From assembly GCA_015068725.1 (NCBI GenBank), contig SVKA01000001.1:62001-126000 (forward strand): a stretch of 64,000 nucleotides of DNA, in the 5' to 3' direction. Under the pieces are notes generated by a model that did not search any database, had not been told where the DNA came from, and saw only the letters and a list, made by a program, of their open reading frames with translations. Below are positions 1,931 through 59,347 of the stretch, piece by piece; the first letter of the stretch is position 1; each line of letters opens with the position of its first letter. The position numbers and the translations under genes were made by a program. The stretch is from Oscillospiraceae bacterium. Lineage in GTDB: Bacteria; Bacillota; Clostridia; UBA1381; UMGS1253.

Positions 1931-2602
1931 AAAGGCTGACAGATTGCCGGTAGGCATCATATAAATTACGGTGGCGCAGTATTCTAGTCAGATCTATCTA
2001 TTCCCAAGACGGGCCTAAAAATCCGTTTAAGGGCATATCGATGAAGTTTCTGGTGCTTGCTTTGAACGCCCAGTTCGGGGTTGGTGCTGGAAGTTAAGGT
2101 TTCGGGGCGGTCCGCAATGGCATGCGGGAGCCGAACCCCGTTACCGTGGAGACCTGTGATTGTGGTTGCCAATGAACGCACGCATAAGCTGCGTTTAAGT
2201 AGCTACGACACAGGATAAAACCTGCATATCGGTGCTTTTTGTGCTGGGTGCAGTGTAGCCTGCCTTGAGTGGGGCAAGTCGGGATAACGGACAGACAAAT
2301 GTGCGTTGGCCGATGCACGTTTGTTATCGCTGTTTGAAACTTTCGCTGCAAAAGAGGCTAAGAATAGATGTGACTGTTGAGGAAACCTCCTAGACTGTTG
2401 CTACGCTGGCCTATAAGGGATTGAAATACGGACTAAGTGGTAATCAGGTCATATATGTGGTAACGCATGTATAGAGCGCTTTAAAGGGAAACCGCCGATT
2501 TGGCGACATTTCGGCAGTGCTTTGGGAAAACCTACCTGACCTCAAGCCGTAAAATTTACTTTGTGGGCTGCCACCGTAGATTATATGCTGCTTACCACAT
2601 AT
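1931..2602 (+). ncRNA. ole: OLE RNA (ornate, large, extremophilic RNA)
   Basis: About 670 nt without a supported ORF lie between a consensus promoter and a gene for an OapA-like membrane protein, followed by dxs and tlyA. This length and neighbourhood match OLE RNAs, structured RNAs of about 600 nt in anaerobic and extremophilic Bacillota that form a membrane-associated ribonucleoprotein with OapA, OapB and OapC. Pairings read directly include 1936-1940 (CTGAC) with 1987-1991 (GTCAG), a GGTTTCGG/CCGAACC helix enclosing CCGC/GCGG near 2096-2143, and 2453-2463 with 2592-2602 (ATATGTGGTAA/TTACCACATAT, 11 perfect pairs). No terminator separates it from oapA, so it is probably processed from, or overlaps, the operon transcript. 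The function in this organism is unknown; in Halalkalibacterium halodurans its loss sensitises cells to cold, ethanol and Mg2+ stress. The exact ends are estimates. A covariance-model hit to the OLE Rfam family would settle it. Confidence 0.92.
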
Positions 2603-2621: not shown

Positions 2622-3227
2622 TTGGGAAAATGTCGTAAAATAAGGGTAAAGGCTGCCGGACAAAATGTCAAGGTAAGCCACAGATGGACAATCATAGTAA
2701 CCATTTTAGCGTTTGTATTGTCTGTTTTTATCAGTGCGCTTACGCTTGGGGCAGAGGAGCTTGGACTTTTTACTGCTATACTGGTGCTTTTTTTAATAGT
2801 GCTTTTAGGAATTGTGTTTGATATTGCAGGTATGGCTGTATCTACCGCAAGCGAGGAGCCTTTTCATGCAATGGCTGCAAAGAAAATTGCCGGAGCAAAG
2901 GAAAGCGTTAAAATTATCCGCAGTGCACAGCAGATTTCAAGCGTTTGCAACGATGTTATCGGTGATATTGCGGGAATTATAAGCGGTGCGATGACAACGG
3001 CAATCGTTGTTAGCATAAGCACCGGTAAGACGACGGATACAACATTATTAAACCTTGTTTTTGCCGGTATTGTAGCGGCGCTTATGATTGGCGGCAAAGC
3101 GGCTGGCAAGGGTATTGCGATGAAAAATAATAATACGATTGTTTTTATCATGGGTAAAATAGTTTACTTTTCAAAAAGGCTTGTTTGTTTCAAAAGAAAG
3201 AATAAAAAGAGCAAAAGACAGGTGTAA
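2622..3227 (+). CDS. oapA: OLE-associated membrane protein OapA
   Basis: The 201-residue protein has about four membrane helices (near 22-42, 48-68, 115-133 and 143-162) and a very basic C-terminal tail (184-201) suited to RNA contact. FDIAG (66-70), ASEEPFHAMAAKK (76-88) and CNDVIGDIAGIISG (109-122) resemble the DUF21/CNNM transmembrane domain, where small-residue and acidic positions line an ion site. Position directly behind the OLE RNA and in front of dxs identifies it as OapA, the integral membrane protein that binds OLE RNA. The start is TTG at 2622, 11 nt after GGAG at 2607-2610. That Shine-Dalgarno lies 5 nt beyond the last helix of the RNA. The stop is 2 nt from dxs, so the two are translationally close. 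Confidence 0.92.
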   Translation: MGKCRKIRVKAAGQNVKVSHRWTIIVTILAFVLSVFISALTLGAEELGLFTAILVLFLIVLLGIVFDIAGMAVSTASEEPFHAMAAKKIAGAKESVKIIRSAQQISSVCNDVIGDIAGIISGAMTTAIVVSISTGKTTDTTLLNLVFAGIVAALMIGGKAAGKGIAMKNNNTIVFIMGKIVYFSKRLVCFKRKNKKSKRQV

Positions 3228-9719: not shown

Positions 9720-12700
9720 TCAGAATACCCAGCTTTGATACCATTTAAGACTGTTTAAATATGTGTTTGTAACCTCCATTCCCGACAAAACGGGGTAGAA
9801 GGATATAAACGCCAATGCACATACAAAAAGATATATACACAAAGCGATCAAAGCTTTGTTGTTCTTTAAAGTAATGCCGTTGTATGGATAGCGCTCAAAT
9901 GCATCGTTTATAACATAAGAGAGCATCAAAACAATAAATGGTACGCATGTAAAGTAGTGATAGATAAATACTACACGGTTTATGCCCATCCATGGCACAT
10001 ACTGCGAAAAATATCCTATAATAAGGAACAACGCATTGTAGTTTTTATTTTTAAACATTGTGTATACGCAATACAAAAGTGCGCCAAGACCGAGCCACCA
10101 TACAAAAGGATTACCAAATGATGCTATACTCATTCGCACCGTATCTGTTACATTTCCTGTGAAATACCAGATTGGACGTGCGATAATCGGCCACTGATAC
10201 CATTGTGATGAGAATGGGTGAGAATCCTTGAGGTATGAGTGGTAATTATACATTGAAATCTGATTATCAATTATGCTTTGTATGCCATTCATGCCCGGCG
10301 CACGAAGAAATGGTATATATGAAAGTGCGTATATAATCGCCGGAATGATTACAAAAAATACAAAGCAGTACAAAATAGTCTTTGTGCAGTATTTTTTGCA
10401 GTTTGCAACGGCGAGCCTTTGTGCTTTGGTTGACTGCTTGTTTGACATAACCTTTTTGTATTCCCATATTCGTCTTCCAAACGAGATAAAGAACATAATT
10501 GCAAGGCCTATACCCGCGTATACGCCCGTCCACTTTGACGCTATGCCAAGTCCCATACAAAGACCGCTAAGAGCGAGCGGGATAAGCGTTTTGTTAAACG
10601 GTGTATCATAAAAGCTCTTTGTAGTGTAATCATACATAAAGTAGTACATCAGTATGATAAAGAATGTAATGTATACGTCGATTGTCGCTATACGCGTTTG
10701 CGCAAAGTGCATAAAGTCGAGTGCAAAAAGCATAATTGCCGCAAATGCGACGGGAGTCTTTTTGAACAGCTTTTTTGCAAAAAGATATATGCATGGAAGC
10801 ATAAACACACCAAAAAGCGTTCCCACAACACGCCAGCCAAACGGATTCATTCCAAAGATAAGCACGCCTATTGCAATAAATATTTTTCCGAGCGGTGGAT
10901 GAGTGTTTTCATAAGGAGTAAGAGCATTTATAAACTCATACGCCGTTCTTGCGTGGTATATCTCATCAAAATATGTTCCGTTTTTATAAGAAATCAGCTC
11001 GGGTACAAGGTGCTGCTCGTCCATAAGATTGCTTATGCCGCAATCGTTACCTATGGGTGTGATTGAAACCGGTGTAATTAACGAACCATCTTTGCCGACA
11101 AAGGCAATTTCGTGCAGAACGGTGTTATTTACGCCTGCTTCGATTGTGATATCTGCCGCTACTGTACCGATTTCGTATTCGTGCCAGCAGAAAACCGAGC
11201 CGAGTGTATTGGCTTTTCTTATTTTCATTCCCGATGGCTCTGTAAGACGAAGTATCACGTCGCGCTCCTCATACGAGCCGGTGTAAAACTTTATTTTTTC
11301 GATATATGTGTTTTCGGCAAATTCCATACGAAAACCATTGCCCACGGTAGGACTGTCCCACTTTGTTACGGGAGCCTTCATATCGCCGAGATTTGTAAAG
11401 GCTACAATAGCATAAACAAGAGTAACAACGCTCATAATTATCGCATCTGTGCGTGTGATACGCATTTTTGGAGCCGATTTCATAAGCTCAAATTCTTTTT
11501 GAGGCTTATTTTGGACAGACGGTTTTTTTGCCGTTTTTTGTTTTAGTGTTACGATGGTTTCTTTTTCGTCCGACATTACATATACAAGATATATAAACGA
11601 TATTATGTTTATTATGCAAACAACCGGCACAAATGCTCCTGATGGAGCTGCTGTGGTGTTAAGCTCCAGATTCTGATAAAGCATCGAGCTTGTGTTTAAA
11701 AATTGTCCGATGCTTAAAAGTGCAAACGACACAACAACGCGAATGTCCTTTTTATATGCAAATGCCATCAAAAGAAGTATCATTGCGGGGAAAATATAAC
11801 GCTCGTGCATTTTTGCTGCAAAGGTAAACATACAGGTAATTATAAAAGCGGCAAGCATAAACAAATTTGTTTCTCCCTTGCGCTTTATATAGATAAACGC
11901 ACATACAAATACTATTGAAATTATTGCAATATTTGACCATACAGAATACGGGAGCAAAAGGAAGGTTTGATTCACATCGCGCCAGTTTGCCCCAAAGAGT
12001 GCAAATACGTTAAACGCATTTACAGTTGCATACGGATATGACGCAAGTGTCGATATATATTGCTTTATTACTGGCATAAAGTCGAAACCTTTTGCAAATG
12101 GAAGTATAAGCACAAACAAAAGTCCAAAGCTTGCGATTGCGCTTATGCCGATTTGCTTTAAAGCTTTTATGCGTGCACTTTTATCGTGCGCGTCGATAAA
12201 AAGCATGCGATACAAATACAAAAGAAGTATTGGAGTAAATATTACTGTCTGCGGTTTTATAAGCAGACCTGTTGCAAAGCATATACATGCCCATAAAAGC
12301 TTCTTTTCGGATATAAGCCAGACAAAAAGCACCACAAATAGAGTGAAAACACTGTCGACCTGTCCCCATGCACTGCTGTTTATTATAGTCGCAGGATTTA
12401 AAAGGTATAAAAGCGGCAGACAAAGTGATACAGTTTTGTTTGTACGCTTTGAAAGGAATTTGTACAAAACAAAGCCGCCTGCAAGGTCGCATATTATAGC
12501 GGGAAGCTTTATTATGACAGTATAAAGAGTCGAATCGTATGCGATGTTAAAAAGTGATTTTACCGCACCGATAAGGTATAGCACATACATATATCCGGGT
12601 GGATAATCTGTAAAAGCATCAGAAAAATAAAAATTTGAAAGTCCGCCTTTAAATGACATTTCTGCCCAGCTTTTAAAGCATACGATATCCGTAGCGTGTC

Positions 12701-37126: not shown

Positions 37127-37455
37127 TGTTGTGACATGGCATACGATGAAACGGGAGGTTGCGAACGAGAAAAGTTCGGTTTTTCCGTGGAGAATGTCCG
37201 ATTCCTGAAACCGGGCGACAAGTCACGCTGCACTTATGCATATCTTGCAGCTTGCTTATCCTGCAAAGCAGGGGGCTTTTGCGCGTTTGCGCAAGGGCTG
37301 ATTGTTTTTGCGTTATTACCCGGCGTACTCGAGATGGGAATGTCCGGGTTTTATTAGGGAAAAGGCGGGAACACCCGGCAGGGTGTAAGCATGCAAAGGT
37401 GCGTGCTGTCGTATGTGTAACAACCGAAAAAACAAAAATCAAAGGAGGTAAAACT
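37127..37455 (+). promoter_or_regulatory. Long structured leader of the S10 operon
   Basis: This non-coding stretch is much more GC-rich than its surroundings and holds several hairpins: GAAC/GTTC and CGGTTT/AAACCG (37163-37215 region), CCTGC-AAA-GCAGG (37260-37272), GCGC-GTTT-GCGC (37286 region), ACCCGG/CCGGGT (37319-37353) and ACACCC-GGCA-GGGTGT (37371-37386). No known riboswitch is recognised. The likely role is autogenous control of the operon by one of its own proteins (L4 does this in Gammaproteobacteria) or processing. No T-tract terminator was found in it. Confidence 0.55.
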
Positions 37456-48800: not shown

Positions 48801-49544
48801 ATGATTACAATAAAGTCCCATAGCGAGCTTGATTTGATGCGAAAGGCAGGCAAAATTGTATCCGGCACATTTGAAGCGTTAAAGCGCTCGATAAAGCCCG
48901 GAATTACTACAAAAGAGCTTGACCGTATTGCGTATGATTTTATCAAAAGCAGCGGTGCAACACCTTCGTTTTTGAATTATGGTGGCTTTCCGGCAAGTAT
49001 ATGCACATCGATTAACGATTGTGTCATTCACGGAATACCGGATAAGACAAAGCTGTGTGATGGAGACATTATAAGTATAGACATCGGCGCGTGCTATAAA
49101 GGATATCACGCTGACAGTGCAAAAACTTTCGCTGTTGGAGATATAAGCGCCGATGCTAAGCGCCTCATTGACGTTACACGTCAGAGCTTTTACGAAGGTA
49201 TAAAGCTTGCAAAAAGAAAAAATCGTATCGGCGACGTAAGTGCGGCGATAGGAGAGTATATTGAGTCAAACGGATTTGGAGTTGTGAGAGATTACACAGG
49301 TCATGGTATTGGAGAAAAGCTCCACGAGGACCCCAGCGTTTTCAATTTTGGTGCGCCCGGGCATGGTCCTCGTCTGATGGCGGGGATGACTATTGCGATT
49401 GAGCCTATGGTAACCGCAGGTGATTATGAGGTTTATACCGAAGATGATGACTGGACAGTAAGAACATTTGATGGTTCGCTTGCAGCGCATTACGAACACA
49501 CAATTCTTATTACTGATGGTGAGTGTGAGATACTTACGCTTTAA
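48801..49544 (+). CDS. map: Methionine aminopeptidase type I
   Basis: The 247-residue metalloprotease removes initiator Met from nascent chains. Dimetal ligands lie in DIGACYKGYHADSAKTF, GHGIGEKLHEDP and IEPMVTAG, with the catalytic His in the CVIHGIP segment. AGGAGG lies before the ATG, 9 nt after adk. Confidence 0.97.
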   Translation: MITIKSHSELDLMRKAGKIVSGTFEALKRSIKPGITTKELDRIAYDFIKSSGATPSFLNYGGFPASICTSINDCVIHGIPDKTKLCDGDIISIDIGACYKGYHADSAKTFAVGDISADAKRLIDVTRQSFYEGIKLAKRKNRIGDVSAAIGEYIESNGFGVVRDYTGHGIGEKLHEDPSVFNFGAPGHGPRLMAGMTIAIEPMVTAGDYEVYTEDDDWTVRTFDGSLAAHYEHTILITDGECEILTL

Positions 49545-49571: not shown

Positions 49572-49847
49572 TTGGATATCTGTATTGGAAGCGTTGTGAT
49601 TTCCAAGGCGGGACGCGACAAAGGACGCAGCTTTATCGTTGTGGCGCAGGAGGGCGAATTTGTTTATCTGTGCGATGGCGATTTGCGAAAGAGCGACTGC
49701 CCGAAGAAGAAAAAACGCAAACACCTTGCATCTACAAACATAGTTTGTGATTATATAGGTGATAAGATAAAGGATAAAAAAAAGGTTACAAACACAGAAA
49801 TACGCAGAGCTTTGTCAGAGCTTTGCATGGATGTTAAGGAAAACTGA
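49572..49847 (+). CDS. oapB: KOW-domain RNA-binding protein OapB (YbzG)
   Basis: The 91-residue protein has a KOW/L14e-like fold at 6-24 (GSVVISKAGRDKGRSFIVV), a basic segment KKKKRKH (45-51) and a short C-terminal helix with NTEIRRAL. It lies between map and infA, the conserved position of ybzG in Bacillota. In H. halodurans this protein is OapB, the second protein of the OLE ribonucleoprotein, which binds OLE RNA directly. With an OLE RNA and oapA present 47 kb upstream, the assignment is well supported. OapB homologues also occur in genomes without OLE RNA, so a ribosome-related role is possible too. TTG 49572 follows GAGGTG. Confidence 0.88.
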   Translation: MDICIGSVVISKAGRDKGRSFIVVAQEGEFVYLCDGDLRKSDCPKKKKRKHLASTNIVCDYIGDKIKDKKKVTNTEIRRALSELCMDVKEN

Positions 49848-49862
49848 AAGGGGGCTTTATCC

Positions 49863-50081
49863 GTGGCAAAGGACGATATGATTGAAATTGAAGGTACTGT
49901 AGTCGAGGCACTGCCGAACGCAATGTTTCAGGTAGAGCTTGAAAATGGGCACAGGATACTTGCTCATATTTCAGGCAAACTTAGAATGAATTTCATAAGA
50001 ATTTTGCCGGGGGATAAGGTAACGGTTGAGCTTTCGCCGTATGACCTTACTCGCGGAAGAATTACATGGAGAGCAAAATAA
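49863..50081 (+). CDS. infA: Translation initiation factor IF-1
   Basis: The 72-residue OB-fold protein binds the 30S A site. [30 protein letters not shown] and [14 protein letters not shown] are nearly invariant. It starts at GTG 49863 behind GGGGGC. Confidence 0.98.
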
Positions 50082-59005: not shown

Positions 59006-59347
59006 ATGGCAGATAAGGTTTTATCCATGATAGGAATGGCAAGGCGAGCAGGCGAGGCGCAAACGGGTGCGTTTTTAACGGAGCGATCAATTCGTGAGGG
59101 CACGTGCGAGCTTATAATTCTTGCGACCGATACGGCACAAAATAACGCAAAAAAGTTTATAAATGCAAGTGAGTATTATGATATTCCGCTTATAAAATAT
59201 TCAACAAAGGCAGAGCTTTCACACGCACTTGGCAAGGAAAATGTTGTCGTAGTGGGTATATCGGATAAAAATTTTGCAAAAGGTATAATGGGCAAATACA
59301 ACGAATGGTGCACTCTGCAAGAGCAAATGGAAAAAATGAAAAAATAA
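59006..59347 (+). CDS. L7Ae-family kink-turn RNA-binding protein (YlxQ)
   Basis: The 113-residue protein has the L7Ae/L30e core: GMARRAGEAQTGAFLTERSIREGTCELIILATDTAQNNAKKF, then IKYSTKAELSHALGKENVVVVGISDKNFA. In B. subtilis YlxQ and its paralogue YbxF bind kink-turns. YbxF is the family of OapC, the third OLE partner. This gene is the YlxQ member by operon position; the YbxF member usually lies near rpsL and is outside the window. Binding to the local OLE RNA is a testable idea, not a conclusion. Confidence 0.9.
   Translation: MADKVLSMIGMARRAGEAQTGAFLTERSIREGTCELIILATDTAQNNAKKFINASEYYDIPLIKYSTKAELSHALGKENVVVVGISDKNFAKGIMGKYNEWCTLQEQMEKMKK

Follow-up and report, generated by a model that had tools for sequence, protein, structure and literature searches.

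Genomic context and identity of oapB

The window described here is a whole stretch of 64,000 nucleotides from an Oscillospiraceae bacterium of the class Clostridia, in which oapB, a small gene of the ybzG family, is located within a run of ribosomal-protein genes. Its immediate neighbours are map and infA, which encode methionine aminopeptidase and IF-1, respectively.

48801..49544, + strand: map (methionine aminopeptidase), ending 27 nt upstream of oapB (ORF, gene order)
49572..49847, + strand: oapB (ybzG family), 91 aa, TTG start (ORF, PDB match, fold match, synteny, conservation)
49863..50081, + strand: infA (IF-1), 15 nt after the oapB stop (Pfam PF01176, E=1.2e-29)

The TTG start codon of oapB is found just 3' of GAGGTGA, which represents the ribosome-binding sequence, and the encoded protein is composed of a KOW/eL14-like core (residues 1-58) followed by a C-terminal two-helix element (60-67 and 74-90) that carries K65, K71-V72-T73-N74 and R78. 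The only strong sequence match of the protein in the PDB is to 7k9b_A, the OLE-associated protein B, which extends over residues 5-84 with an E-value of 1.1e-8. No match is obtained against Pfam, and within NCBIfam the protein is recognised only by the L14e model NF003320, where its 15 bits (E=0.022) lie below the cut-off of 87 for membership of the eL14 family; a usable OapB model is present in neither collection. An AlphaFold model, for which the input was three sequences (the window protein and two relatives), has a mean pLDDT of 89.8. The five best fold matches of this model are all OapB chains, with two of these structures including OLE RNA, and the query TM-scores against 7k9b, 7k9d and 7k9e are 0.82-0.90 with an rmsd of 1.4-1.6 Å. 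After the OapB chains the next fold matches are the eL14 (L14e) proteins of archaea and eukaryotes, which give Foldseek TM-scores of about 0.64-0.75 to the model; the sequence similarity between eL14 and OapB is at noise level, and eL14 is no standard component of bacterial ribosomes.

No second close relative of OapB was found in a search of the window's genome. Among related loci oapB is retained beside map/infA in 76 out of 76 cases (infA in 76, map in 75), where the sole locus without map, L085, is one in which a contig end cuts off the map side. This retention means that oapB is not a chance ORF. The match to 7k9b, the fold and the synteny bear out the preliminary description of the sequence, which had assigned the KOW gene between map and infA to the YbzG/OapB family, and the gene at 49572-49847 is thus confirmed as encoding an OapB/YbzG orthologue. 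Both OapB itself and its operon location are already published: OapB is the same protein as YbzG, and in Halalkalibacterium halodurans its gene shares an operon with translation genes (PMC9723947).

OLE RNA and the OapB-binding element

To our knowledge OLE is among the largest structured bacterial RNAs that have no known biochemical activity. The OLE-oapA pair has been described as nearly always in tandem, and this is also the arrangement found in the window, where the following features are present.

1955..2590, + strand: OLE RNA, full length (RF01071, 498.9 bits, E=2.3e-143)
2474..2524, + strand: P12.2 helix, AAAGGGAAACC bulge and P13 hairpin with a GGCGAC (GNRA) loop (Rfam alignment, relatives' alignment, folding)
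2622..3227, + strand: oapA, membrane partner with a DxxxD motif (ORF; weak, sub-threshold CNNM similarity)

The oapA ORF, in which the DxxxD motif takes the form D-V-I-G-D, comes directly after the OLE RNA and is followed by dxs and tlyA. The RF01071 match, the oapA ORF and the OapB match together uphold the earlier observation that OLE, oapA and oapB occur within one 64-kb segment. The proximity of OLE and oapB within a single window is not in itself meaningful, because the two are 47 kb apart and belong to different operons. On contig C67 of genome G020 (L064, L027) OLE (247-895) and oapB (10324-10575) are about 9 kb apart. In genome G087 (L042) OLE is at C6:36543-37199 and the only oapA match is at C21:82590-83096, on a different contig; as OLE is well inside an 81-kb contig, and a tandem would be the usual arrangement, the two look to have become separated in this organism.

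According to published work OapB binds OLE at the P13 hairpin together with P12.2 (PMC9723947, PMC12265935). The corresponding stem was sought in the local OLE RNA, in line with the check proposed in the preliminary description, and is intact at 2474-2524, its GGCGAC loop included. The P12.2/P13 element is likewise seen in every aligned OLE RNA of the window's order; the alignment, from which the misaligned row L051 was left out, was used because a pattern search for P13 matched the window only. What form does the loop take in genomes where OapB is undetected? In two such class-level OLE RNAs, L339 and L340 (of G281 and G436, respectively), the P13 loop is AGUAAU and AGCAAU, with an A-U loop-closing pair instead of the G-C pair of GGNGAC, whereas the GGUGAC loop is retained in two short OLE RNAs of a family whose genomes keep OapB, a comparison that comprises two cases on each side only. 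The A-U closure in L339 and L340 fits a published description of variant OLE RNAs, in which the nucleotides of the OapB site are often missing (PMC11332333).

Operon position and the proposed link to growth rate

The gene run that contains oapB begins with a regulatory leader:

37138..37221, + strand: S10-Clostridia ribosomal-protein leader (RF03136, 50.4 bits), heading the S10-spc-alpha run that contains oapB

On the 3' side of the leader, at 37274-37299, a pattern scan detects a terminator-like hairpin whose tail is T-rich, and leader and hairpin together (37138-37299) could plausibly form an attenuator that precedes the gene run with oapB. From the leader at 37138 to rplQ the genes form an unbroken same-strand run in which the gaps around oapB are short, and, judged from this layout, oapB is likely to be co-transcribed with the ribosomal genes. 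Both the continuous run and the terminator-like hairpin could be taken to favour the proposal, made in the preliminary description, that oapB is in the ribosomal operon so that assembly of the OLE particle follows growth rate. However, 34 OLE-negative genomes have exactly the same order of map, oapB and infA, which implies that the position of oapB either predates OLE or is independent of it, and that this position gives no evidence of OLE-specific control. The proposal moreover presumes that the level of OapB limits the OLE particle. The operon position therefore leaves the link between the OLE particle and growth rate unsupported, and we regard such a link as improbable.

OapC, YlxQ and the core set

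The published OLE core set is made up of OLE, OapA, OapB and OapC (PMC9723947, PMC11332333). A genome search reveals two L7Ae-family genes in the window's genome, one of which lies within the window.

59006..59347, + strand: ylxQ, L7Ae-family paralogue of OapC, between a ylxR-like ORF and infB (control in the rate analysis)

The gene at 59006-59347 is a YlxQ-like gene and no OLE partner, and the second L7Ae-family gene, which is of the YbxF/OapC type, is located on contig C2 upstream of rpsL-rpsG. OLE, OapA, OapB and OapC are all encoded in the genome, which makes the published core set complete. The idea that a complete core complex is plausible here was originally put forward for OLE, OapA and OapB, in an account from which OapC, here found beside rpsL, was absent. 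The window represents an ordinary but complete OLE system, and its OapB is constrained in the same way as OapB proteins elsewhere that bind OLE. OapC (YbxF), the third core OLE partner, differs from OapB in having another fold and another binding site, a k-turn near P5. OapC is reported not to be replaceable by YlxQ (PMC11332333).

Distribution of OLE and its partners

How closely does the presence of OapB follow that of OLE? Of 95 genomes belonging to the window's order, 48 have OLE, 46 have OapA (all within those 48) and 74 have OapB. The oapA homologues are thus confined to OLE-bearing genomes, and the OapB-bearing genomes comprise 40 with OLE and 34 without, where OLE absence is judged on MAGs and may be an assembly gap, although the absence of OapA agrees with it. 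Real loss of OapB from the remaining 21 genomes was considered and rejected: infA is missing too in all 21, and the same query recovers infA in 6 of 6 control genomes, so that these absences are assembly gaps. OapB is found in every genome of the order where the locus is assembled. At the level of the class, 164 of 393 genomes have OLE and 304 match the OapB profile.

It has been reported that the presence of OapA, OapB and OapC correlates with that of OLE and that about 60% of OLE-bearing genomes have OapB (PMC11332333), and OapB is also known to occur in species without OLE (PMC9723947, PMC11332333). As many MAGs miss the ribosomal operon, the published frequencies may understate how often OapB accompanies OLE, and some reports of OapB missing from OLE genomes may reflect incomplete assembly.

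Evolutionary rates with and without OLE

Given that OapB is found both with and without OLE, what is it that constrains the protein? Map, IF-1, L36 and S13 were used to construct a tree of the order, and on this fixed topology branch lengths were estimated for OapB and for the core proteins. On OLE-bearing branches the OapB/core rate ratio is 1.79, and on OLE-negative ones it is 4.60, such that OapB, measured against its operon neighbours, evolves about 2.6-fold faster without OLE. The genus medians, for which the individual values are not fully independent, are 1.68 (OLE-bearing, n=17) and 4.65 (OLE-negative, n=11; p=4.3e-5). The shift is observed in the first 54 columns, at the N-terminus (p=3.5e-4), as well as in the C-terminal part (p=5.2e-5), and no OLE-linked shift is detected for the controls on the same tree, Map/core (p=0.89) and IF-1/core (p=0.48). 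When independent OLE-negative lineages are compared with their OLE-bearing sisters, the OapB ratio is the higher in 8 out of 8 (sign test p=0.008).

OapC behaves like OapB in evolving faster without OLE. In a set of 57 genomes, in all of which rpsL lies downstream of the gene, the OapC ratio is 2.78 with OLE and 5.30 without (p=0.004), and for the same tips the OapB comparison gives p=2.2e-4 and that of Map p=0.40. In contrast, YlxQ, an OapC paralogue that is comparable in size and rate and serves as a control, undergoes no shift (3.22 with OLE against 3.39 without, p=0.97), on tips where OapB does so (p=1.1e-4). These ratios show that OapB and OapC are under much stronger purifying selection in the presence of OLE. 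Could the faster evolution of both proteins in OLE-negative genomes instead be a lineage effect, associated with population size, composition or reduced genomes? A few genera do hold most of the OLE-negative genomes, and the tree yields only about 8 independent contrasts, but the rates are normalised to neighbours, Map, IF-1 and the fast-evolving YlxQ are unshifted on the same trees, and the direction is the same in all 8 sister contrasts, all of which makes an effect of lineage unlikely.

The comparison thus provides a quantitative, sequence-only sign of functional dependence on OLE, and the rate test tells the true partners OapB and OapC from the close paralogue YlxQ and from the operon neighbours. 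Since it separates partners from controls in this way, the test could be run proteome-wide to nominate missing OLE partners.

OLE-linked residues and the C-terminal spacing of OapB

The residues of OapB were compared between 71 proteins from OLE-bearing and 85 from OLE-negative genomes, with conserved residues standing in for the RNA-contact residues of 7k9d/7k9e. Within the KOW core G14, G36, K45, K47 and H51 are invariant, or nearly so, in both sets. Several other positions, most of them in the C-terminal element, differ with the presence of OLE. For instance, N74, which caps the last helix of the AlphaFold model, is found in 70/71 (99%) of the OLE-bearing set against 44/85 (52%) of the OLE-negative set, where the replacement is mostly D, and K71 is found in 57/71 (80%) against 11/85 (13%); the equivalent proportions are 82% and 24% for V72, 89% and 35% for K65, and 66% and 18% for D42. 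The window OapB has all five of these residues, and also has all of those that are near-invariant with OLE (K65, K71, V72, T73, N74, R78, R15, K48 and K50). K71, V72, T73, N74, R78 and D42 are present in the H. halodurans sequence as well.

Within the order, H51 and R78 are 27 residues apart in 40/40 OLE-bearing against 5/33 OLE-negative genomes (Fisher p=2e-15, uncorrected for relatedness). This spacing is retained in the window OapB, and a hand count gives the same value of 27 for H. halodurans. At class level a spacing of 27 is found in 31/31 OLE-bearing genomes, a figure that includes L147 as counted by hand, against 26/52 OLE-negative genomes; as this sample was partly drawn from best-scoring matches, it is the figures for the order that are free of bias. 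Some OLE-negative genomes keep the VTN motif and the spacing of 27, notably at class level, and the presence or absence of the VTN motif alone differs in 2 of 8 independent pairs (p=0.5). The coupling of rate to OLE, the invariant 27-residue spacing and the contrast with YlxQ were not found among the OLE papers, the only literature consulted, and their novelty is provisional.

Two individual cases may be noted. G254, a single-contig, 100% complete genome of genus g124, has no detectable OLE, and the other sampled g124 genomes carry OLE; it is a clean candidate for recent OLE loss, and its OapB still has the spacing of 27. In L036, from Lachnospiraceae UBA7188, an OapB homologue has the decayed C-terminal motif KIYGEEIRYAL, and oapB is some 40-110 nt away from its neighbours.

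Proposed role of OapB

One of the questions raised by these data is whether OapB acts mainly as a translation factor or in association with the ribosome, as a KOW protein of the eL14 type in bacteria for which OLE binding is secondary or absent here. The strongly relaxed selection on OapB and the altered C-terminal spacing that accompany OLE loss would be unexpected if a ribosomal role were the main constraint, and the local OLE RNA keeps its OapB-binding element intact. Thus, even with oapB inside the ribosomal run in all genomes, OLE-bearing or not, with archaeal and eukaryal eL14 as the next-best folds and with OapB published from species without OLE (PMC9723947, PMC11332333), a protein of this kind is very improbable. 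The observations as a whole are most probably, and with considerable confidence, explained by a genuine OLE-binding OapB that clamps P13/P12.2 and helps to fold domain 2 of OLE in a membrane particle.

In such a scheme OapB would be made along with the ribosomal proteins through the co-transcription suggested by the gene layout. The KOW/eL14-like core and the C-terminal two-helix element would provide the surfaces that clamp the P13 hairpin and the P12.2 helix of the OLE RNA (1955-2590). By this means OapB may assist in the folding of OLE domain 2, a chaperone role that is drawn from the published work on H. halodurans, within a membrane particle that would also contain OapA and OapC. A second, OLE-independent role of OapB would keep oapB in the ribosomal operon after OLE has been lost.

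Read most economically, the data point to the binding of OLE as the principal constraint on both OapB and OapC, each of which would also keep a weaker OLE-independent role, and the eL14-like fold and ribosomal operon suggest that this role concerns the ribosome. It is fairly likely that these elements belong together, such that OLE binding dominates the constraint on both proteins, repeated OLE losses expose an older eL14-like or L7Ae-like role, and after loss both stay in their operons, drift and lose their C-terminal geometry. If this is correct, a rate shift on OLE loss would represent a general way to find unknown proteins of the OLE particle.

The system most directly comparable with that of the window is from H. 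halodurans, where OapB (PDB 7k9b-7k9e, 7kkv) shares with the window protein its fold, the KOW core, a C-terminal two-helix element with K-V-T-N and the 27-residue H-to-R spacing. The two genomes also have in common an oapB operon with translation genes and an OLE RNA with P12.2/P13. The organisms themselves belong to different classes of Bacillota, and their OapB proteins are about 28-31% identical in fold alignments. The divergence extends to the basic run, which is PKKKKRKHL in the window OapB and AKRKNMNHL in that of H. halodurans.
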